Source: a bacterium (GTDB lineage: Bacteria > JAMOTN01). Taken from it: a DNA stretch of 34,793 nt. The DNA lies in contig JAMOTN010000042.1 of the NCBI GenBank assembly GCA_027062325.1, forward strand, positions 1-34,793. The letters are read 5' to 3'. Shown piece by piece: positions 4,204 through 17,487 of the stretch; positions within the stretch are counted from its first letter, which is position 1, and each line of letters starts with the position of its first letter. The translations under genes and the position numbers were made by a program. The notes under the pieces were generated by a model. The model was given only the letters and a program-made list of their open reading frames with translations, did not search any database and had not been told where the DNA came from.

Positions 4204-5337
4204 TTATTCACTTTTAAGTAAAAATATTCTATCAAAAATTTTACGCATGGCTTTAGAGCGATGAGAGATGAATTTTTTAAGGTGGGGAATTTCAGCAAGT
4301 GAAGGTTTGCTATTTTGTGAAAAGTGAGTATTTACAAGTTGTTCCGGAATGTATTTAAACTCATTTCGATGTGGTGAAAAGATGGGATCATATCCAAATC
4401 CCCCAGCACCTTTAGGTGCGGTGAGAATTTCTCCCATAAGTCTTCCAGTTGTCAATATTGTTGGAGAGATTTGAGCTATGAATGGGTGGGATTTCAAATG
4501 TATGCCCCAACCAGCATTAATTGATATCAAAGTTGCTGCCGCAATAGTTAAAAAGAAGGCAGAAAAGTTGTTAGAGCTTTTGCATTTTTCAATTACTATC
4601 CTCCACCTTTCTTCATCTGTATCACCTATGCGTTTTGCTTTTGGACCAGGAAATGATTGAAAGGCTTGCAGGTATAATCCTGTGTCTTCGCCTATGATGG
4701 ATAAGAGAATGTGAGGAGAATTTAAAGTATTCGAGGATTTGTTGAAAGATGAAGGAGTAGATTTTGCCTTTACAGAGGTTGAAAGAAGTTTTTGTAAAAT
4801 TTTAGAAGTTGCATGTATAGATTTGTTTACTGCATTTACTGAGATATTGTCTCCTTCTTCCACTTCTATAGGAAGATTTGTGAAATGGACAGTTAGGAAA
4901 GAGTTTTGAAAGTTGAGTTGGTAAGATTTTATGTAATTGAGTTTTAAATTTAGTAGTAGAGTTTTTAGCAGTAGTTGGGTGATTGAGTTGTTAGATGAAA
5001 TATAAGGGTGTGGAAAAGATGGAGGTGTGGCATGAGAATTATTTATTTTATTTGAGAGATTTGTTGAATTTAAATTTTTAGCTGTGAAGGTGTTATTAAA
5101 GTGCGACTTGTTGCAGTATGTATTGTTCGATTCATAACGAACAAACGTTTGTTCGTTTAGTAAAAAATTTTTTAAGCGCTGAGCTTGAAGTTCATCTTTA
5201 TCACTTGAGAAGCTGAATTTAAGATTTTGTTCCTCACACCACACCTCCCAATTATCTGTTATCTCAATGACTTTGTGAGGGTTATTTGTTGCTACAACAA
5301 AAATAAATGTATCTGGGTGTAACTCTTTCATTCTCAC
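4204..5337 (-). CDS. rdgB: RdgB/HAM1-type dITP/XTP pyrophosphatase with large low-complexity insertions
   Basis: House-cleaning enzyme family that hydrolyses non-canonical NTPs (dITP, XTP) to the monophosphate. Family motifs appear in order: FVVATNNPHKVIEI (residues 13-26), DNISVNAVNKSI (163-174, the eNA..KA helix), GEDTGL (216-221, the catalytic-Asp loop, usually DDSGL), KGAGGFGYDPIF (309-320) and FISHRSKAMRKI (356-367). The family is usually about 190-200 residues; this one is 377. The excess is mainly residues ~61-155, rich in Asn, Ser, Thr and Leu, and ~186-208. The frame is intact and all motifs are kept, so it is probably a working enzyme. Start is GTG 5337 (GGGGG five bases upstream) or ATG 5331. 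It lies 26 bases after the HU-like gene, likely co-transcribed. Confidence 0.8.
   Translation of the reverse strand: MRMKELHPDTFIFVVATNNPHKVIEITDNWEVWCEEQNLKFSFSSDKDELQAQRLKNFLLNEQTFVRYESNNTYCNKSHFNNTFTAKNLNSTNLSNKINNSHATPPSFPHPYISSNNSITQLLLKTLLLNLKLNYIKSYQLNFQNSFLTVHFTNLPIEVEEGDNISVNAVNKSIHATSKILQKLLSTSVKAKSTPSSFNKSSNTLNSPHILLSIIGEDTGLYLQAFQSFPGPKAKRIGDTDEERWRIVIEKCKSSNNFSAFFLTIAAATLISINAGWGIHLKSHPFIAQISPTILTTGRLMGEILTAPKGAGGFGYDPIFSPHRNEFKYIPEQLVNTHFSQNSKPSLAEIPHLKKFISHRSKAMRKIFDRIFLLKSE
5125..5157. repeat. Three evenly spaced GTTCG/CGAAC half-sites including a 22-bp perfect palindrome
   Basis: GTTCG (5125-5129), CGAAC (5138-5142) and GTTCG (5151-5155) alternate in orientation with exactly 8 bases between neighbours. 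The last two lie in a perfect 22-bp palindrome (5136-5157; half-arm AACGAACAAAC). Bases 5138-5151 match 13 of 14 positions of the Gram-positive LexA/DinR consensus CGAACRNRYGTTYC. The element lies in the coding sequence of the rdgB-like gene, where it encodes NEQTFVR at the start of its low-complexity insertion. A protein-binding role is inference. Confidence 0.45.
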
Positions 5338-5363: not shown

Positions 5364-5657
5364 TTATTTTAACTCCTGAGTTAGTTTTTTGCTGGGAATG
5401 AATTTTATTCTTTTGCGTGACGGGACATTTATAATTTTTCCCGTTCTTGGATGTTTGATTTTTCTTGGTTTTGCGTCAACTACTTTGAGAGTACCTACAC
5501 CTCTAATTCTGAATAATCCGTCTTCTTTCAATGCGTTAAATACAGTCAGTTCAAATGCTCCCAAAATGTGTAGAAGCAGCGGGATGGAAATCTTTTTGCT
5601 CAATCCCTTCTCCTGTAGAATCTTCATCACTCTCTTTGCAATTTCTTGCTTTCTCAT
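5364..5657 (-). CDS. hup: HU/IHF-family DNA-binding protein
   Basis: Small (97-residue) histone-like protein that bends DNA as a dimer in the nucleoid. It shows the family plan: an N-terminal helical pair (MRKQEIAKRVMKILQEKG, then IPLLLHILGAFELTVFNAL), the beta turn LFRIRGVGTLKVVDAK (compare V.L.GFGTF), then the minor-groove arm KIKHPRTGKIINVP and the closing RIKFIPSKKLTQEL. PRTGK is the strongest signature. The arm keeps the Pro that intercalates DNA. ATG 5657 is chosen because AAAGGAGGG precedes it by about six bases; the frame stays open upstream to 5750 but without a ribosome site. It is the first gene of a likely operon with the RdgB-like and NhaC genes and has its own promoter upstream. 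Confidence 0.88.
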   Translation of the reverse strand: MRKQEIAKRVMKILQEKGLSKKISIPLLLHILGAFELTVFNALKEDGLFRIRGVGTLKVVDAKPRKIKHPRTGKIINVPSRKRIKFIPSKKLTQELK

Positions 5658-5721
5658 CTCGATCCCTCCTTTCGGGTATGTTATTACTGTTTGATTCAGT
5701 CCCCATTTTCCCAAGACACCT

Positions 5722-5750
5722 ATCTTAACACATAAATTACTTTCAATCAA
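5722..5750 (-). promoter_or_regulatory. Candidate sigma70-type promoter of the HU-like gene
   Basis: On the minus strand TTGATT (5750-5745) and TAAGAT (5727-5722) are 17 bases apart, each matching four of six consensus positions. Transcription would begin near 5715, leaving a leader of about 58 bases that contains the AAAGGAGGG ribosome site. Confidence 0.5.
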
Positions 5751-6022: not shown

Positions 6023-8176
6023 CTATAATTGAACCTTTGCTTGCAAATACTTAATAGCTAGTTTTATAAGCTTGTCATACTGAGGGTTTATTTTTGAGAA
6101 AGATAATATGCTTTTGCTATTGGCCCCGCGCATATTTTCAGCAAAGAGCTTTATGAACCACTTTTGCTCTTCTTCTCTTTTTGCTTTTAAAGCAAAATCT
6201 AAAGCCACAATTGCCAAGTCTCTATCTTGAAGACCATGTATTAGATCTAAAAATGCTGTTTTAATTTCGGGATTTGATTTTTTGACAATTTTACATAGAG
6301 CGTTGAATACGTACTCACTTCTGAAATTTTTTACCAATGCCTTAATCGCTTCAAATGCTACTGTTTGATCTTCATCACTTGCTGCTTTTAAAAGAAATTC
6401 AATGCTATCGATTTGTTTCACTTCTGCAAGAAGTTTTACGAGGAAAGCTTTAAGATCTCGATTGGTAATAGTTGAGTAAGATTCTATAGCTGTTATCACC
6501 CAGTTTGATATTACTTTTTCTAAAATTAAAGCTAAGCTGTACATTATGTTCCACTCGGAGGTTTCATTGGCCAGCTTTATCACTTCTTTAACGAATTTGG
6601 GACCTATCTGAGGATGTACTGTATCTAGAAAAGTTGAGAAAAGATGGGATCTATTTTTAATCCATTCTATGAGTTTGTTGAAAAATTCATTGTTCAAACG
6701 GGTAGCTAAGGCGATCATAGAGTTTTTATCCCCCTGTTCAACTTGATTTAGTAGTTCTACCTCGTCAACAGGTACACTTTCTATGATGCGGCAGCTCCAA
6801 AATCTGACATCCGGGTTTGAGGACGAAAGCATTGGAAATACTATGGCAAAAGCAAATTCTTTGAAGGAAGTCTTAAGAGATTGAGCAGCTTCTTTGCGCA
6901 CAAGCCATTCTTCATCAGTGAGAAATTCTGCTACTTTTTCAGCGTGTTCAATAGTTGGTATCTCAGATAAAATCTGTATGAAAAATACTTTGCTCTTTTT
7001 GTCTGCTTCTTCTATAAATTTATCCAATATTTCTCGCCCACCTCTTAGTTTTGAAAGCGTTTTAATGGCCCAGTATCTATCGTTTTCTTCTTCAGACTTT
7101 AATTTTTCGATTATTGGGGATAGGTTTTCTGGATTTATTGATATTATGGCTTCACTTGCTCTTTTTCTGAGTAGCCAACTTTCTGAGTTAAAAAATTCTA
7201 CAAGTTTGGGAACTACCTTTTCAGAGTTTATAGAGGCCATTGCCTGTATACAATAGGATTTAACTTCAACGGATGCTTTTTCTATGAATTTTTCTATTAT
7301 GGGCAAAGCCTCTTCCTTTGCAAGTTCTGCAATTATTTGAATTATCCAAAATTTTGTGTTAATATCGGATTTCTCGTAATATTTCTCAAGAGTTGGAAGA
7401 ATAGACTTGTCGTAATGTTTGACAATTGCTCCTGCAACTTCTACTCTAATTTTCCAGATTTTATCAGAAAGTCCCTTGAGTAATAATGGAAGAATTTTTT
7501 CACTGTTGATCTCGCTTATTGCAGTATAAGCGTAAAAGCGAAGTTTAGGATTATTGGATTTTAGAATTGATGCAAAGACTCCAAGTACCTCTTCTCCCCC
7601 GATTTTTCCCATCAGTTTTATACTCCAGTATTTTACGTCTTCGTTTCCAGTTTTAAAAGCCTTGTTTAAAACAGGGATGGCTTTTTTTCCAAATTTTTCG
7701 ATACTGGATGCTGCAACGTTTCTCACACTCCAAACGGAGTCGGACAGCATGTTTATTAGAGTTGAGAGAGCTTCTGAAGAATGTGTTGCTTTTCCAAGGT
7801 TTATGGCACAGTATTTTCTGAAAGATGTGTTTGGATGGCGGGAAAAAGGAATGATAAATTTGATCAGCTCCTTTATATGAGCTGCAATGTGCATACACCA
7901 AAATAGTTTGTCTTCGTCTATTTGCGAATTGTTGAGCGCTTCTTTGAGTATCTCCTTGATTTTCTCTTTTATATACGGAGATGAATGCTCAATGAGCTTT
8001 TCGGCAATATTTTTTCTTATTCCCCAGTCAGTGTTGGATAGGTTTTCTATAAATGTATCGACGACTTCTTCTTTATCAAGGTGCATAGAGAGAAACCAGA
8101 CAGCGTATAACTTTTCTGAAAAAGAGGCATTTTTTAAAACGTTCTTCAACTCTTCTAGTTTTTTTTCTTGAAGCAT
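6023..8176 (-). CDS. Large HEAT-repeat protein, probably cytoplasmic
   Basis: A 717-residue all-helical protein made of HEAT-type repeats from end to end. Each unit of about 30-40 residues carries a helix with WxxR or WxIRxxxA (DTDWGIRKNIAEKL-like, DSVWSVRNVAASSI, DKIWKIRVEVAGAI, EEWLVRKEAAQSL), and many alternate units carry (K/R)xWxI or RFYAY helices, giving a two-unit periodicity. There is no signal peptide, membrane segment or enzyme motif. Such solenoids act as protein-binding scaffolds; no partner can be read from sequence. ATG 8176 is chosen, with GGTGG upstream; GTG codons four and three codons earlier are alternatives. It begins 22 bases after the HEAT-TM-TPR gene, so the two are almost certainly one operon, and a terminator follows. 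Confidence 0.75.
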   Translation of the reverse strand: MLQEKKLEELKNVLKNASFSEKLYAVWFLSMHLDKEEVVDTFIENLSNTDWGIRKNIAEKLIEHSSPYIKEKIKEILKEALNNSQIDEDKLFWCMHIAAHIKELIKFIIPFSRHPNTSFRKYCAINLGKATHSSEALSTLINMLSDSVWSVRNVAASSIEKFGKKAIPVLNKAFKTGNEDVKYWSIKLMGKIGGEEVLGVFASILKSNNPKLRFYAYTAISEINSEKILPLLLKGLSDKIWKIRVEVAGAIVKHYDKSILPTLEKYYEKSDINTKFWIIQIIAELAKEEALPIIEKFIEKASVEVKSYCIQAMASINSEKVVPKLVEFFNSESWLLRKRASEAIISINPENLSPIIEKLKSEEENDRYWAIKTLSKLRGGREILDKFIEEADKKSKVFFIQILSEIPTIEHAEKVAEFLTDEEWLVRKEAAQSLKTSFKEFAFAIVFPMLSSSNPDVRFWSCRIIESVPVDEVELLNQVEQGDKNSMIALATRLNNEFFNKLIEWIKNRSHLFSTFLDTVHPQIGPKFVKEVIKLANETSEWNIMYSLALILEKVISNWVITAIESYSTITNRDLKAFLVKLLAEVKQIDSIEFLLKAASDEDQTVAFEAIKALVKNFRSEYVFNALCKIVKKSNPEIKTAFLDLIHGLQDRDLAIVALDFALKAKREEEQKWFIKLFAENMRGANSKSILSFSKINPQYDKLIKLAIKYLQAKVQL

Positions 8177-8198
8177 ATGATACACCACCCAAAATTAA

Positions 8199-9605
8199 CT
8201 AAAGATTTATCTTGTTATACAATGATGGATCTTTCGATTTTAAAAATTTTAGAAACTTTCTCTGTTCCTTCGTTGGTTTCATCTTTAGTATCTCTTCGTA
8301 ATCTGAGATGTATAATATCTCCTTAAGTTCTTCGTAATATTTCATTAGCAAATTAACGTTACTTTCATCTATTAGTAACCAAACAATTTCTTCCTTTATG
8401 GTTTTGTCATTTTGAAAGAGCCAAGCTTTAATAAGTTTTTTTAATGCTTCTTCACTATCTCCGGAAAGTCTTAAAGATTGCCCCCAAGAAAGAAAGAGGT
8501 ATGCATAAGTTTTATTGAGTTTTTCTTTTAGGTTGCTAGGAATTTTTTCTCCAACTTCCTGAAGTAAGATATAGGCAGAGTTGAAAGCTTCTTTGTCTAT
8601 AAGTTTTTTTACAGTTTTCAGTTTATTCTTGAGCCAGTTTTCGTAGTTTATACCCAGAACAAACATGAGTTTGTCTCTGATGCTTGGTTTGAAGATTAGT
8701 AAACTTGAACTTATACCAAGGATTAAGACAGTGGCCATTATTATTAATTTTCGAGTTAATGGTTTCTCTGAATTGCTCTGAGTTTGAAATTGAAACTGGT
8801 CGGATGTTATGAATTTACGCTTAGATTTTGTTTTTTGGGTTTGATTGGGAGAATGAATATTGTGAGGCTTTTGAGTTTTAACATTTTTAGAAGATTTTTC
8901 TTGCTCTTTCTTAGAAGAGTTTTCATCTAGTGATCTTGATTTTATAGATGAAGTGGTTGCTAACTCTTTCAGTAGCTGCTTTATTTTAGGGTCTTTTTCT
9001 GCGATCATCACTTTCTCTGCAAACTTTGATATAGTGAATGATTTAAATTTTGATAGAGTTTTTAGAATGGCGAGCTTCCAACCTTTCTCTTTCTTACTGG
9101 CAAATAATCTAAATAACTGCTTGATTATATCGCTTTTTTTTCTGGATTTTGTGTGTTTTAAAAGAAATTCTGCAGCTGTTGTTACTACACGGTGATTTTG
9201 ATGCTCAAGAAGGGAGGAGACCTTTTCAATTACAAATTCCGGGATTTTTGCGCTTATGAGATCTAAAGCTTCTATGGTGTTTGCGACGACACGTGGATCT
9301 GAGTCCGATAGGAACGGTATTATTAGAGGGATTGCTTTATCTTGGAGTGCTACTGCTGCTGCTTTAACGGCGGAGGAAAGAATGAACTTATCGTTGCTTG
9401 ACAACAACTTCTTTATTCGATTTGCGTCTCCAACCTCTTTTCCTGCTATAACATTCTGAAGGTAATTTATATCTTCTTCACGTTTTTTACTTATGTCTTT
9501 AGGTTCACATGTTGCTTCAATCTTTTTTAATACTTGACGTGCTAAAATGGCAATGGAAGGGTTAGGAAAAGAGCAGAGTTTTACTACTTGATCTTTTAGC
9601 TCCAA
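8199..9605 (-). CDS. Membrane protein with N-terminal HEAT repeats and C-terminal TPR-like helices
   Basis: From the TTG at 9605 the protein has 468 residues. Residues ~1-215 are HEAT-like helices (SDSDPRVVANTIEALDLI, HQNHRVVTTAAEFLL). A charged Ser/Lys/Gln linker covers ~216-284. A single membrane helix (KLIIMATVLILGISSSLLIF) spans ~286-305. A helical, TPR-like domain with SWGQSLRLSGDSEEALKKLIKAW runs to the end. The positive linker suggests the HEAT part is cytoplasmic and the TPR part extracytoplasmic. Domains are recognised but no named family. The start is doubtful: the frame stays open to 9713 and the extra residues (RLKKLLESPFESDIEIAL) look like another HEAT helix. A good AAGGAG (9728-9723) precedes an ATT at 9710, not the TTG. 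It is divergent from fliP and co-transcribed with the soluble HEAT gene. Confidence 0.7.
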   Translation of the reverse strand: MELKDQVVKLCSFPNPSIAILARQVLKKIEATCEPKDISKKREEDINYLQNVIAGKEVGDANRIKKLLSSNDKFILSSAVKAAAVALQDKAIPLIIPFLSDSDPRVVANTIEALDLISAKIPEFVIEKVSSLLEHQNHRVVTTAAEFLLKHTKSRKKSDIIKQLFRLFASKKEKGWKLAILKTLSKFKSFTISKFAEKVMIAEKDPKIKQLLKELATTSSIKSRSLDENSSKKEQEKSSKNVKTQKPHNIHSPNQTQKTKSKRKFITSDQFQFQTQSNSEKPLTRKLIIMATVLILGISSSLLIFKPSIRDKLMFVLGINYENWLKNKLKTVKKLIDKEAFNSAYILLQEVGEKIPSNLKEKLNKTYAYLFLSWGQSLRLSGDSEEALKKLIKAWLFQNDKTIKEEIVWLLIDESNVNLLMKYYEELKEILYISDYEEILKMKPTKEQRKFLKFLKSKDPSLYNKINL

Positions 9606-9762
9606 AGTCGGATTGGCGAATAATTCTGTTAGTGCTATCTCTATGTCGCTTTCAAAAGGACTTTCTAAAAGTTTTTTTAAGCGGTTAATATTGGTTGCTT
9701 TGGTGTTAATTTTTTAACCACGCTCCTTACTGCAAATTGATCTATTTTGTATTAAAATTAAG

Positions 9763-9778
9763 ATTGTCAATTGACAAT
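9763..9778. promoter_or_regulatory. 16-bp perfect palindrome between divergent HEAT and flagellar units
   Basis: ATTGTCAATTGACAAT is self-complementary and sits midway between the two divergent transcription units. Each arm contains TTGACA, the consensus -35 hexamer, one pointing each way, though neither has a convincing -10 at 16-18 bases. It could be an operator shared by both units. No specific regulator can be named. Confidence 0.4.
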
Positions 9779-9861: not shown

Positions 9862-10533
9862 ATGGCAACGCAGGGGGTAGTTTTGAATTTAAACGTTGGA
9901 AATTTAGCAGAATCTTTGAGACTTCTAATAATACTAACTCTTATTGCTGTTTCTCCGCTACTTCTTGCAATGTTTACGTCTTTTACCAGAATAATAGTTG
10001 TACTCTCTTTTCTAAGAAGGGCTTTGGGATTGCAAACTACTCCTTCTAATCAGATACTGATAGCTCTGGCTCTAATTTTGACTTTTTATACAATGGCAGG
10101 TGTTATTGCAAAAATAAATTCGGATTGCATTGAAAAGTATTTAAAAGGAGAAAAAACTTTTCAACAAGCTTTGAAAGATTCTACATTTTACGTAAAAAAA
10201 TTCATGGTAAACAATGTGAGTAAAAAGAGTGTTTTATTCTTTTCAGAACTTGCAAATTTTGATTTGAGTAAGTTGAAAAAAATGGATGATATACCTTGGA
10301 TAATTTTGGCTCCGGCTTTTGTAGTGAGTGAATTAAAGATAGCTTTTCAAATAGGAATAATTATAATGCTACCTTTTTTGGTAATAGACCTTGTTGTTGC
10401 AAGTGTGATTATGGGAATGGGAATGATGATGTTGCCTCCTGCTATGATTTCACTTCCGTTCAAGGTATTGCTTTTTGTGATGATTGACGGATGGCATTTG
10501 GTCATTGGATCACTGGTTAGGAGTTTTTCCTAA
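9862..10533 (+). CDS. fliP: Flagellar type III export gate protein FliP
   Basis: Core membrane protein of the flagellar export gate; with FliQ and FliR it builds the channel through which rod, hook and filament subunits pass. The hallmark stretch AVSPLLLAMFTSFTRIIVVL, followed by RRALGLQTTPSNQILIALAL, is intact, as are the C-terminal PFLVIDLVVASVIMGMGMMM and LPPAMISLPFKVLLFVMIDG segments. Four hydrophobic segments are visible. At 223 residues it is at the short end of the family: unlike enterobacterial FliP it has no obvious cleavable signal peptide, starting MATQGVVLNLNVGNLAESLR before the first helix. ATG 9862 follows GAGGG by four bases. It is the first gene of the export operon; no fliO, fliM or fliN precedes it. 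Confidence 0.95.
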   Translation: MATQGVVLNLNVGNLAESLRLLIILTLIAVSPLLLAMFTSFTRIIVVLSFLRRALGLQTTPSNQILIALALILTFYTMAGVIAKINSDCIEKYLKGEKTFQQALKDSTFYVKKFMVNNVSKKSVLFFSELANFDLSKLKKMDDIPWIILAPAFVVSELKIAFQIGIIIMLPFLVIDLVVASVIMGMGMMMLPPAMISLPFKVLLFVMIDGWHLVIGSLVRSFS

Positions 10534-10563: not shown

Positions 10564-10836
10564 ATGGAGGATGTGTTGGTATTAGAGTTGATAAGAAGTG
10601 CTTTTGAAGCAACACTTATACTGAGTTTACCGTTTCTTTTAACGAGTTTGGTGGTTGGTGTATTGGTTAACATATTTCAGGTTGTATTTTCTGTACAGGA
10701 GCAGACTTTAACTTTTGTTCCAAAGTTCATAGTTGTTGCTATAGTCTTGGCAGTTCTTGGGCCGTGGATGGTTAAGTTTATGACAAATTACACGCAAACT
10801 CTGGTATTGAATGTTAACTACTGGTTGGGTAAATGA
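10564..10836 (+). CDS. fliQ: Flagellar export gate protein FliQ
   Basis: Small two-helix membrane protein (90 residues, the usual size) that packs around FliP/FliR in the export gate. Family features: an N-terminal helix with EATLILSLPFLLTSLVVGVL, the conserved NIFQVVFSVQEQTLTFVPKF loop (family Q-x-T-x-I/V-QEQTL-x-F-x-PK), and a second helix VVAIVLAVLGPWMVKFM. AAGGGGGAG lies about nine bases before ATG 10564. It sits 30 bases downstream of fliP. A short AT-rich inverted repeat lies in the 53-base gap to fliR. Confidence 0.94.
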   Translation: MEDVLVLELIRSAFEATLILSLPFLLTSLVVGVLVNIFQVVFSVQEQTLTFVPKFIVVAIVLAVLGPWMVKFMTNYTQTLVLNVNYWLGK

Positions 10837-15126: not shown

Positions 15127-15155
15127 AAAATTAAAGGTGGAATGGGGGGAGCTTG

Positions 15156-15923
15156 ATGTTAATTGCTGTTACTAGTGGCAAAGGAGGCGTTGGAAAGACT
15201 CATTTTTCTGTGAATATGTCGCTACTTTTATCAAAGCGCTTTGAAACGGTGTTGGTTGATGCAGATACGGGGCTTGGAAACGTTGATTTGGTTTTAGGAA
15301 AGAAATTTGAAGTGAATTTGATAGATGTATTTGTTTCGGATTTGCCCTTGAAAAAGTTGTTGCCCCAATATGAAGATCTGTGGGTAGTGCCTGCTCCTTC
15401 TGGCGTAGTTGAATTAGCAGATTTAAGTAATAGGGAAAAGAGAGTTTTAGAAACATTTTTAAATGGCCTTGATAGTGAGTTTGATGTAGTTGTTTTGGAT
15501 ACGGCAGCTGGTATTCACAGTGCAGTTCGTTTTTTCTTGGAAAAAGCGGATAAAATAGTGCTGGTAGTTGTTCCTGATCCTGCTAGTCTTAATGATGCGA
15601 TGGGGCTTATAATGAGTAGTAGTGCATCGGAATTTTATCTTGTAGTTAACAGGTGTTTATCTCACAAAGAGGCGAAGATGGTTCATAATTTGCTCATTGA
15701 TTGGGTCAAATATACGGATAAGGTGGTGCACTTCTTAGGATGGTTACCTGAGGATCCAAAGCTTAGAGAGGCTGTTTTTTCAAGAAAGCCGGTGGTGGAG
15801 TATGCACCTGATAGTAGATTTTCCTCGTTGCTTTCAAATATAGTTTCTAAATTGGTTAATCTTAAGGGGGATGGGGATGAAAGAGGTGTTGAGAAATTAT
15901 CGGATGTCCTTTATAAAGGCTAG
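15156..15923 (+). CDS. flhG: FlhG (MinD-like ATPase controlling flagellar number)
   Basis: P-loop ATPase of the MinD/ParA family (255 residues) that works with FlhF to set flagellar number and position. Visible motifs: deviant Walker A GKGGVGKT at residues 9-16 including the signature Lys, VDADTGLGNVDLVLG (switch I region), VVVLDTAAG (Walker B/switch II) and PDPASLNDAMGL. Unlike many FlhG proteins there is no N-terminal extension: the Walker strand starts at residue 2, so the DQA-type helix that stimulates FlhF GTPase in other bacteria is absent. ATG 15156 follows GGGGGGAG by four bases; the TTG one codon upstream is too close. Its last 47 bases overlap flhF. Gene order flhG-flhF is the reverse of the common arrangement. 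Confidence 0.9.
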   Translation: MLIAVTSGKGGVGKTHFSVNMSLLLSKRFETVLVDADTGLGNVDLVLGKKFEVNLIDVFVSDLPLKKLLPQYEDLWVVPAPSGVVELADLSNREKRVLETFLNGLDSEFDVVVLDTAAGIHSAVRFFLEKADKIVLVVVPDPASLNDAMGLIMSSSASEFYLVVNRCLSHKEAKMVHNLLIDWVKYTDKVVHFLGWLPEDPKLREAVFSRKPVVEYAPDSRFSSLLSNIVSKLVNLKGDGDERGVEKLSDVLYKG

Positions 15924-17487
15924 ATCAAGGGAAGAGTTAGAGAAAAAGATCACAGACGAGATAGCTAAAACTGGAGATAGAATTGTTGATAAGGTTGTTA
16001 TAAAGCCAAGTTTAATGAAGAGAATAATTGCTTTCATAAAGGAAAAATTAACAGATGAAGTAGAGGATGATCTTTGGTGCGCACGTGTTACTTTTGAAAA
16101 GAGCAAGAGTAATGAGCAGGAGTTTGAGGAGTTGTCTTCTGAAATAAGAAAAAGATTGAGTAGAAAGTATGGAAAACTTGAGGATATCTTGGTAGATGTT
16201 AAATCCGGTTTGGGAAGATTGAATAAAAATAAAGATAGAGGTATTGCTGATTCAAATGTTTCTCAGTTTAGTAATCGAATGGGGAAGAATGACTTGGAAG
16301 ATGTAGGTAAAGTTTTATCCCCTGAAGTTCTTAAGGTTATTAAAGACGTTTTTGAAAATAGAGGTAAAAATGTTCGCAAAAGAAAAAGTCATATAGAACT
16401 TGGGGCAGAAAATGGTGTTTTGAATTCTCTAAGAACTCTTGAAGGTGCTTTGGTAAGTAATAAGAGTAGTTCAAGCAACAAGGTTGTTAATTCTACTTCT
16501 CCAAATAAAGTTGTTGGGAAAAGTGAAAAAAGTGTGGATGTGAAGAGAGACTCTGATGAAAGCTCTTTGCTGAATGATAGGAATATTAATGCGAGTACTT
16601 TACAAGCTGATGTTAAAAAGCATGATAGTAGAGAACTTACAAAAGCTATAAGCTTAACTGGAGAATTGGAAAAGATAGTTCAGAATCTTGCTGACGTTGT
16701 GAATAGTGTGGAAGTTATCTCAAAATCGAGTGTGTTGGATAAGGATCTGAACTTGACTGTGCTTGAAAAGGAGGTTATCAGAAAAGGATTAGGAAGATAT
16801 GGCTTGAGCGAGGATGAGAAAGGAATAGAATTGTTGCTTTCGCGTGTTGTTAGAAAGCGGCTTATAACTTATCCACCTGTGGCTATGATGTTTGTTGGCT
16901 CAACGGGTGTAGGAAAGACAACAACTATTCAAAAGATTACTTTGAAGTTAAGAGAGATGGATATTGCAGCTTCAAAATTGGTTATTGTAACTTTGGATAC
17001 TTTTAAAATAGGTGCAAATAGGCAGATGGAGGCATTTGGCAAAGCTACAGTTATTGCTGTTAAGCAGTTTGTTGACTTTACGAGTTTTGTAGAGTGGTTC
17101 AGCGATTGGAAAGAACGAGATGGTGGTTGGGTGCTTGTTGATACACCTGGGGTGAATTCATTAGCGGAGTCAGATTGGGGATACATAAATGCTGCTGTTG
17201 AGAGAGATTTGGAGGTTATACTGTGCTTGGCGGCTACCGATAAGTTCTATGTTAATAGAAGTATCATTGACAAAGCAATGGAGAAGTTATCAGGGAAGAT
17301 CGGAGGAGTTATCATTACCAAACTGGATGAGGTTGAAAATTTACTTCAGGTGTTACCGATACTTGTTGAGGTTGATGAAAAGTTGTCAGGAGCTGGAATT
17401 TACATGTTTACAACGGGGCAGTCTTTGCAAGGGGGGATTCTTGTTCCGGACGTAGTTAAACTGAAAAGTTATAAAAAGTTGATTTGA
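15877..17487 (+). CDS. flhF: FlhF, SRP-type GTPase for flagellar placement
   Basis: Third member of the SRP GTPase family (with Ffh and FtsY), marking the pole or site where flagella assemble. Of 536 residues, the first ~250 form a charged, Ser/Lys/Asp-rich, low-conservation region (the B domain). An N-domain helical bundle follows, then the G domain: GSTGVGKTT at 341-349 (G1), VTLDTFKIGANRQMEAFG (the insertion-box DTYRIGA motif), VLVDTPGVN with Asp422 (G3), ITKLDE with T481-KLD (G4), and TGQSLQGGILVPD. The G3 motif is unusual: SRP GTPases have DTAGR, here DTPGV, so the conserved Arg is lost. ATG 15877 is six bases after AAGGGGG; ATG 15871 directly abuts it. The gene overlaps flhG by 47 bases. 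Confidence 0.9.
   Translation: MKEVLRNYRMSFIKARSREELEKKITDEIAKTGDRIVDKVVIKPSLMKRIIAFIKEKLTDEVEDDLWCARVTFEKSKSNEQEFEELSSEIRKRLSRKYGKLEDILVDVKSGLGRLNKNKDRGIADSNVSQFSNRMGKNDLEDVGKVLSPEVLKVIKDVFENRGKNVRKRKSHIELGAENGVLNSLRTLEGALVSNKSSSSNKVVNSTSPNKVVGKSEKSVDVKRDSDESSLLNDRNINASTLQADVKKHDSRELTKAISLTGELEKIVQNLADVVNSVEVISKSSVLDKDLNLTVLEKEVIRKGLGRYGLSEDEKGIELLLSRVVRKRLITYPPVAMMFVGSTGVGKTTTIQKITLKLREMDIAASKLVIVTLDTFKIGANRQMEAFGKATVIAVKQFVDFTSFVEWFSDWKERDGGWVLVDTPGVNSLAESDWGYINAAVERDLEVILCLAATDKFYVNRSIIDKAMEKLSGKIGGVIITKLDEVENLLQVLPILVEVDEKLSGAGIYMFTTGQSLQGGILVPDVVKLKSYKKLI

Follow-up and report, generated by a model that had tools for sequence, protein, structure and literature searches.

A soluble HEAT solenoid gene and a gene for a candidate membrane-tethered HEAT adaptor, divergent from flagellar export genes

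Contig JAMOTN010000042.1 of the bacterial assembly GCA_027062325.1, analyzed here over a stretch of 34,793 nucleotides (the window), carries two adjacent genes for HEAT-repeat proteins on its minus strand. Gene 2 (8199 to about 9710) comes first and is followed after 22 nucleotides (nt) by gene 1 (6023-8176), and the pair diverges from the flagellar export run fliP-fliQ-fliR-flhB-flhA (Table 1). The gap and the absence of any terminator-like site within it, as judged by a scan, suggest that the two genes are co-transcribed. The original prediction, made from the sequence alone, described a soluble HEAT solenoid encoded together with a putative membrane receptor that joins HEAT repeats, one membrane helix, and a TPR-like domain. 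The genome to which the window belongs (1.65 Mb, 84% complete) is the sole representative of its phylum in the genome set used.

The open frame of gene 1 spans positions 6023-8188, and an ATG at 8176, preceded by GGGTGG, gives a product of 717 residues. This product matches the Pfam family HEAT_2 (PF13646) in 10 stretches along its length, with an E-value of 2.7e-52 and a score of 175.4 bits (cut-off 27.7). Two types of repeats alternate along the chain, W..R..A (starting at residues 48, 146, 238, 331, and 421) and (Y/F)W.I/C (starting at residues 183, 276, 368, and 459), with like repeats 90-98 residues apart. The single-sequence AlphaFold2 model contains 46 helices and 0 strands, with a mean predicted local distance difference test (pLDDT) value of 68.5; block values reach 76-93 at residues 71-340 and fall below 50 at residues 423-524. 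Hydropathy scanning revealed no membrane helix. The family match, the all-helical model, and the lack of a membrane helix all support the predicted soluble 717-residue HEAT solenoid. Foldseek with the model returned generic HEAT/Arm solenoids only, phmmer against the PDB mostly alphaRep designs, and a search of viral contigs no match. The PADLOC model HEAT-ARM_XIII also matches gene 1 (E 9.5e-24), but as only part of this 1972-position HEAT model is covered, we attribute the match to shared repeats and rejected gene 1 as a defense gene.

Gene 2 is open over 504 residues, or 468 counted from the first TTG (9605), and its single transmembrane (TM) helix has about 320 residues ahead of it and about 160 behind it. 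The HEAT_2 match (E 3.7e-8, 34.0 bits) lies above the same cut-off of 27.7, and the HEAT part is modeled with block pLDDT values of 62-95, mostly above 80. In VIA-align comparisons, HEAT/Arm solenoids reach Z-scores of 13-14, with residues 72-259 as the main aligned part. Combined with the mean Kyte-Doolittle hydropathy of 2.56 for the helix, these results uphold the proposed fusion of HEAT repeats to one membrane segment. Foldseek and VIA-align retrieved alphaRep, designed Arm proteins, PP2A-A, adaptins, and karyopherins, with the C-terminal domain barely covered, and phmmer against the PDB gave two weak alphaRep matches (E 0.0086 and 0.037). No function follows from such generic solenoid matches; NCBIfam gave only partial matches to either protein, far under the cut-offs.

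The C-terminal domain of gene 2 is helical, with helices at residues 357-503 and block pLDDT values of 48-84, but the TPR label of the original prediction is weak, the only Pfam match being TPR_15 with 15.4 bits (cut-off 26.2, E 0.012). With a local TPR hidden Markov model, the score of this domain was equaled by 21 of 500 shuffled sequences, while the training control scored above 500 of 500. Two weakly TPR-like proteins of the window were reached by 60 of 500 shuffles (489 residues) and by 330 of 500 for the full score or 4 for the best domain (1215 residues), and the HEAT-only gene 1 by 48 of 500. As untrained weakly TPR-like window proteins are not separated from shuffles, this model decides little, and a TPR-like fold is possible. 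The term "membrane receptor" fares similarly: the membrane helix stands, but the receptor part finds no backing, since Pfam gave no sensory domain.

The start of gene 2 deserves attention, as no in-frame ATG, GTG, or TTG precedes 9605, and the frame is open up to the stop at 9714-9716. Position 9713, where the originally described module ends, is therefore the limit of the open frame and holds no start codon. The residues before 9605 are modeled mostly as confident helices, and an AAGGAG motif sits 12 nt before ATT 9710; on these grounds the gene probably starts near this near-cognate codon. Alternatively, a sequence error near the start, in the nearby A6 run, may be involved.

Using a HEAT model built from the same genome on stretches around its Pfam HEAT places, we counted 22 HEAT proteins (25 open reading frame (ORF) rows at E<=1e-3, minus 2 fragments and 1 marginal row), 19 of them without a membrane helix. 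Besides gene 2, two proteins, P0004 and P0003, combine N-terminal HEAT repeats with one membrane helix. Neither of their genes, on contigs C67 and C14, has a directly adjacent HEAT gene; that on C14 has one two genes away. In the local TPR test, the C-terminal part of P0004 was reached by 50 shuffles and that of P0003 by 4. The HEAT genes have varied neighbors, including genes for a ClpX/ClpB-type AAA ATPase, an NtrC-type regulator, a GAF-HD protein, a penicillin-binding protein, and an NAD(P)H-hydrate dehydratase. Three adjacent HEAT-HEAT pairs (on C42, C2, and C44) are present, against 0.27 expected from random placement of 22 HEAT genes among an assumed total of about 1700 genes (P ~0.002). 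Such an abundance across many contexts, together with the lack of a full-length relative of gene 2 and of any mutual match between genes 1 and 2, would fit a lineage-specific expansion in which the two genes are neighbors without a joint function. We give this explanation little credence, as adjacent HEAT pairs exceed chance (an excess that could also come from local duplication), the two genes are nearly contiguous and co-directional, and a similar pair occurs in another genome (G387, below).

Further HEAT proteins of this genome have features of their own. On C72 (L028 2508-8845), the gene for the closest gene 1 paralogue found, a 910-residue protein (E 8.5e-56), lies directly upstream of that for a 1199-residue Big_5 (Ig-like) protein, which has a single hydrophobic helix at its N-terminus. 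A 1488-residue HEAT protein (L031 7048-11514, on C3) begins, as judged by eye, with a CxxC zinc-ribbon-like segment, and another of at least 1910 residues (L030 8705-14434, on C44) ends at the contig edge.

The HEAT-TM proteins allow a comparison of predicted topologies. A hydropathy scan, taken alone, found no N-terminal hydrophobic segment in gene 2, and with about 320 residues ahead of the helix we take HEAT repeats inside as a provisional default; three positive charges and one negative charge flank the helix on each side, so the charge rule favors neither orientation. Flanking charges favor the same orientation for P0004 and the opposite one for P0003 (2 positive before the helix, 6 after), so that HEAT-TM paralogues may differ in topology.

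In searches of 386 genomes, gene 2 matched 10 other genomes, with matches confined to residues 40-284. Single-sequence searches of genome contigs gave 58 pattern matches for gene 2 and, in the neighbor survey, 205 for FlhA, with 0 relatives in both cases. P0004 matches 7 other genomes, the best being G256, from another phylum (E 1.3e-8), and its C-terminal part gives two weak matches (G187 and G159, E 3e-4 and 6e-4). The matching G256 protein has the same order of parts as gene 2, namely N-terminal HEAT repeats, a linker, one TM helix, and a C-terminal helical part, and its HEAT and TPR matches both exceed the cut-offs. Similarity by BLASTP extends over the HEAT part, with E-values of 2e-10 for P0004 and 6e-7 for gene 2, each from a single comparison. 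Unlike gene 2, the 675-residue G256 protein has clear TPRs, and its gene lacks an adjacent HEAT gene and overlaps by 4 nt a gene encoding a zinc ribbon-cyclase-AAA-TPR protein.

This neighborhood raises the alternative that the window pair is a sensory or signaling module, resembling Cpc7 or the G256 operon, in which the outer domain would sense and the HEAT repeats would relay to a response regulator, cyclase, or other regulator. The HEAT genes of the window genome that adjoin the NtrC-type regulator and the GAF-HD protein or are separated by one ORF from a response regulator, and the reported binding of Cpc7 to CheY7 (PMC11514114) point in the same direction as the G256 overlap. We nevertheless consider a signaling role decidedly unlikely: no regulator is recognized beside the window pair, no response regulator is found among its adjacent genes, and the Pfam search for sensory domains was negative.

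Within the phylum of G256, its protein is matched in 39 of 39 genomes with 15-34 matches each, at most 30 candidates being scored per genome, and the HEAT part is matched in 38 of the 39 among the matches listed (G392 being the remaining genome). At 6 of 30 loci, drawn from 30 genomes, HEAT repeats precede a single internal membrane helix, behind which lies a further part; the other frames at the 30 loci are cut or have helices near the cut end. The further part consists of TPRs in G256 and of ankyrin repeats in G387, where CxxC pairs are also present, while the remaining four proteins (L193, L194, L195, and L200, two of them read by eye) have a tail behind a helix that lies near residue 560-590. 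As these six loci carry differing parts, the portion after the membrane helix is exchangeable. The further helical domain after the helix of gene 2, putatively made of repeats, fits this type of architecture. Genomes of this phylum also encode, in many copies, a HEAT module marked by the motif D.RV.AN.IE.L (L039, L069, L101, L182, L212, and L213) and fused to TPR, ankyrin, or membrane parts or to zinc ribbons (the last as judged by eye), with tandem genes in G407 and G408.

The closest parallel found to the window pair is in G387. There, a 269-residue HEAT gene without a TM helix lies 18 nt behind the HEAT-TM-ankyrin gene on the same strand, thus reproducing the HEAT arm, the single helix, the C-terminal part, and the co-directional HEAT gene without TM, with the TM gene first. 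The G387 pair differs from the window pair by its ankyrin repeats, its zinc ribbon, and a partner of the arm's own HEAT type, and the N-terminus of its HEAT-TM protein is cut by the contig end. Besides gene 2, the neighbors of eight HEAT-TM genes were read (C67, C14, G256, G387, G407, G408, G118, and G409), and three of the eight have a directly adjacent HEAT gene, which lacks a TM helix in two cases. These include two HEAT-TM genes of about 1000 residues in tandem in G407 and HEAT genes with and without TM in tandem in G408, where part of the sequence reads N; in G118 and G409 no HEAT gene lies beside the HEAT-TM gene within the stretches available. The unpaired TPR protein of G256 and the paired ankyrin protein of G387 suggest a modular design in which pairing is recurrent but not constant. 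The proposed arrangement of a soluble HEAT gene next to a co-directional HEAT-TM gene thus holds in the window and has a counterpart in G387, with three HEAT-HEAT pairs in the window genome itself; as a conserved unit it fares less well, being neither constant nor, in the relatives whose neighbors were read, placed beside recognized flagellar genes.

We therefore favor, with a probability of roughly 0.53, an interpretation of gene 2 as a membrane-tethered HEAT adaptor of modular design, with gene 1 as a soluble HEAT scaffold produced together with it. Gene 2 would be a single-pass inner-membrane protein whose flexible linker holds the N-terminal HEAT arm on the cytoplasmic side, while the helical C-terminal domain lies across the membrane. 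In this design, one kind of HEAT arm would be joined through a single membrane helix to varied domains (TPR, ankyrin, or other), and the membrane arm would contact the gene 1 solenoid and gather it, along with its clients, at a site on the membrane, perhaps in response to binding at the outer domain. As G387 offers a single close parallel to this pairing with a soluble HEAT gene, we regard a partnership of the two proteins as plausible from the gene arrangement.

Several observations weigh against this adaptor interpretation. The search of the 386 genomes returned no homologue for the C-terminal domain of gene 2, and the best matches of gene 2 within its own genome are HEAT proteins without TM instead of the HEAT-TM ones. 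Genes 1 and 2 do not match each other in own-genome searches. A directly adjacent HEAT gene is missing from C67, C14, and G256 and, within the available stretches, from G118 and G409. The charge rule gives no orientation for gene 2 and the opposite one for P0003. HEAT-TM proteins are significantly alike over the HEAT part only, not over their whole length, so this layout could have arisen repeatedly.

Few bacterial HEAT proteins have an assigned role in the literature surveyed, and no HEAT-TM-TPR protein was found among the titles and abstract openings listed, mostly outside subscription journals. The present data point to a recurring bacterial design, seen in two phyla, of a HEAT arm and one membrane helix with an exchangeable TPR, ankyrin, or other part, followed at least once more by a soluble HEAT gene. 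If these proteins are membrane adaptors, their solenoid arms would bring cytosolic scaffolds to bacterial membranes.

The position of the pair raises another possibility, a flagellar scaffold or landmark. Gene 2 would then either hold stators, like PflB, or organize FlhF and FlhG, like HubP or FipA, with gene 1 as its cytoplasmic extension and both co-regulated with the flagellar genes. The divergent orientation relative to the export run, the FlhG-like MinD and FlhF-like genes downstream of it, and a palindrome within the shared gap are compatible with such a role, for which precedents exist. In Campylobacter and Helicobacter motors, PflB is described as having a short cytoplasmic part, one TM helix, and a periplasmic TPR domain that holds stators (PMC11392913, PMC7990780); the H. 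pylori protein has 61 cytoplasmic residues and about 760 after the TM helix, including a TPR domain of about 700 residues, and PflA as partner (PMC11392913). Likened by description only, gene 2 shares the single TM helix followed by a helical domain and the nature of a solenoid scaffold. It differs in its about 320 residues before and about 160 after the helix, and the accounts of PflB describe no HEAT arm. Gene 2 lacks the short cytoplasmic tail and large TPR domain of PflB proper. The Vibrio polar landmark HubP is reported as a single-pass protein with a periplasmic LysM domain, acidic cytosolic repeats, a C-terminal cytosolic TPR, and a link to FlhG (PMC8789113), and FipA as a membrane organizer of FlhF and FlhG (PMC11620751). 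Gene 2 resembles HubP as a single-pass protein with a solenoid domain, but Pfam gave it no LysM match at E up to 0.1, and no HEAT repeats are described for HubP in that source.

Gene 1, as a HEAT-only protein encoded beside motility genes, recalls OE2401F, a haloarchaeal HEAT_PBS protein of che/fla regions reported as needed for flagellar switching (PMC2666748); the latter is archaeal, has a DUF439/CheF neighbor, and has no HEAT-TM partner described there. Two Myxococcus HEAT proteins, Cpc7 and PomY, are reported to work with a CheY-type protein and a ParA/MinD ATPase (PMC11514114, PMC13170346), the HEAT part of PomY alone giving no measurable ATPase stimulation (PMC13170346); by these descriptions, their architectures differ from the window pair.

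Comparison with other genomes gives the flagellar role little conservation support. FliP is present in 170 of the 386 genomes, the window genome included, and we inspected fliP neighborhoods of 10-20 kb (mostly 19 kb) from 77 other genomes, hand-picked, not random, with the FliP ORF recovered by ORF calling in 67. Using the HEAT model from the window genome, a HEAT gene was found in only one of the 77 (L133, 7.2 kb from fliP), and the next best score in a permissive run was E 0.023; the same model detects HEAT in 3 of 3 known carrier regions (L101, L103, and L105). The L133 gene directly follows a sigma70-family gene that ends an flhA-flhF-flhG run, a placement in favor of a flagellar link, but its best match in the window genome is the 1488-residue HEAT protein of C3, gene 1 coming fourth. 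No HEAT match lies within 5 kb of 6 rod/hook and 8 methyl-accepting chemotaxis protein places in the window genome, as far as contig ends allow, and no flagellar gene was recognized beside the HEAT-TM relatives whose neighbors were read. As 76 of 77 fliP neighborhoods lack a HEAT gene, a flagellar role is possible by adjacency, yet conservation does not support it. We accordingly see the scaffold or landmark explanation as unlikely, and the notion of a constant, flagellum-bound system is not supported. A more specific form of the scaffold explanation, a lineage-specific accessory in which a HEAT-TM-helical-repeat protein links the cytoplasmic HEAT solenoid to the base of the flagellum, is improbable. 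If true, it would be a new type of motor accessory and make HEAT proteins a third solution for organizing the flagellar motor or assembly site, alongside PflA/PflB and the TPR collar of spirochaetes.

The upstream region shared with fliP, which begins at 9862, contains the announced perfect 16-bp palindrome at 9763-9778. A gap of 148 bp with this base composition would be expected to hold 0.004 such palindromes, but 3 were found across the window. The 14-bp core occurs in perfect form only once in the genome; allowing up to 2 mismatches gives 17 sites on one strand (the perfect one included) versus 8 for the reversed control. A regulon operator was rejected since no second perfect core exists, and the palindrome may act as a local operator, with no sign of a regulon in the sequence. 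A consensus scan of the divergent gap revealed no sigma70-type promoter.

Table 1. Features of the window and related HEAT-TM genes elsewhere
Feature	Position	Strand	Evidence or remarks
Gene 1, HEAT solenoid without TM, 717 aa	6023-8176	-	HEAT_2, repeat positions, hydropathy, model
Gene 2, HEAT - linker - one TM helix - helical (weakly TPR-like) domain	8199-9713	-	
Gene 2 HEAT module, residues 1-255	8949-9713	-	HEAT_2, model, VIA-align
Gene 2 disordered Lys/Ser/Gln-rich linker, residues 256-317	8763-8948	-	pLDDT <50, no secondary structure
Gene 2 single TM helix, residues 323-341	8691-8747	-	mean Kyte-Doolittle 2.56
Gene 2 C-terminal helical domain, residues 346-504, weakly TPR-like	8202-8678	-	model, TPR_15
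Putative ribosome-binding site AAGGAG and near-cognate ATT start of gene 2	9723-9728 and 9708-9710	-	inferred
Perfect 16-bp palindrome ATTGTCAATTGACAAT	9763-9778	.	divergent gene 2/fliP intergenic region
fliP, first in divergent flagellar export run	9862-10533	+	FliP, E 2.1e-70
fliQ	10564-10836	+	flagellar export run
fliR, flhB, flhA	from 10890, 11742, 12958	+	downstream of fliQ
MinD/FlhG-like, FlhF-like	from 15153, 15871	+	after flhA
P0004, 783 aa	C67:16440-18788		TM 326-344
P0003, 577 aa	C14		TM 204-222
G256 HEAT-TM-TPR gene, 675 aa	L101 10593-12620		HEAT_2 E 5.9e-12, TM 300-318, TPR_1 E 4.9e-27
G387 HEAT-zinc ribbon-TM-ankyrin gene, soluble HEAT gene behind it	L211 1-2787		HEAT_2 E 5.8e-16, CxxC pairs, TM, Ank_2 E 5.1e-30

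Beyond the export run, the MinD/FlhG-like and FlhF-like ORFs (together 15153-17487, plus strand) lie in this order with an overlap of 53 bp, and the NCBIfam family matches of both are well under the curated cut-offs. The opposite flank of the pair encodes an HU/IHF-like protein, a HAM1 pyrophosphatase, and a Na+/H+ antiporter. The HU/IHF-like DNA-binding protein (5364-5750, minus strand) is encoded 272 bp downstream of gene 1 on the same strand. The RdgB/HAM1-type pyrophosphatase (4204-5337, minus strand, 377 residues) matches its family at residues 208-368 (profile positions 61-184), and its N-terminal ATNNPHK is set apart from this match by a long Asn/Ser-rich stretch resembling a large insertion.

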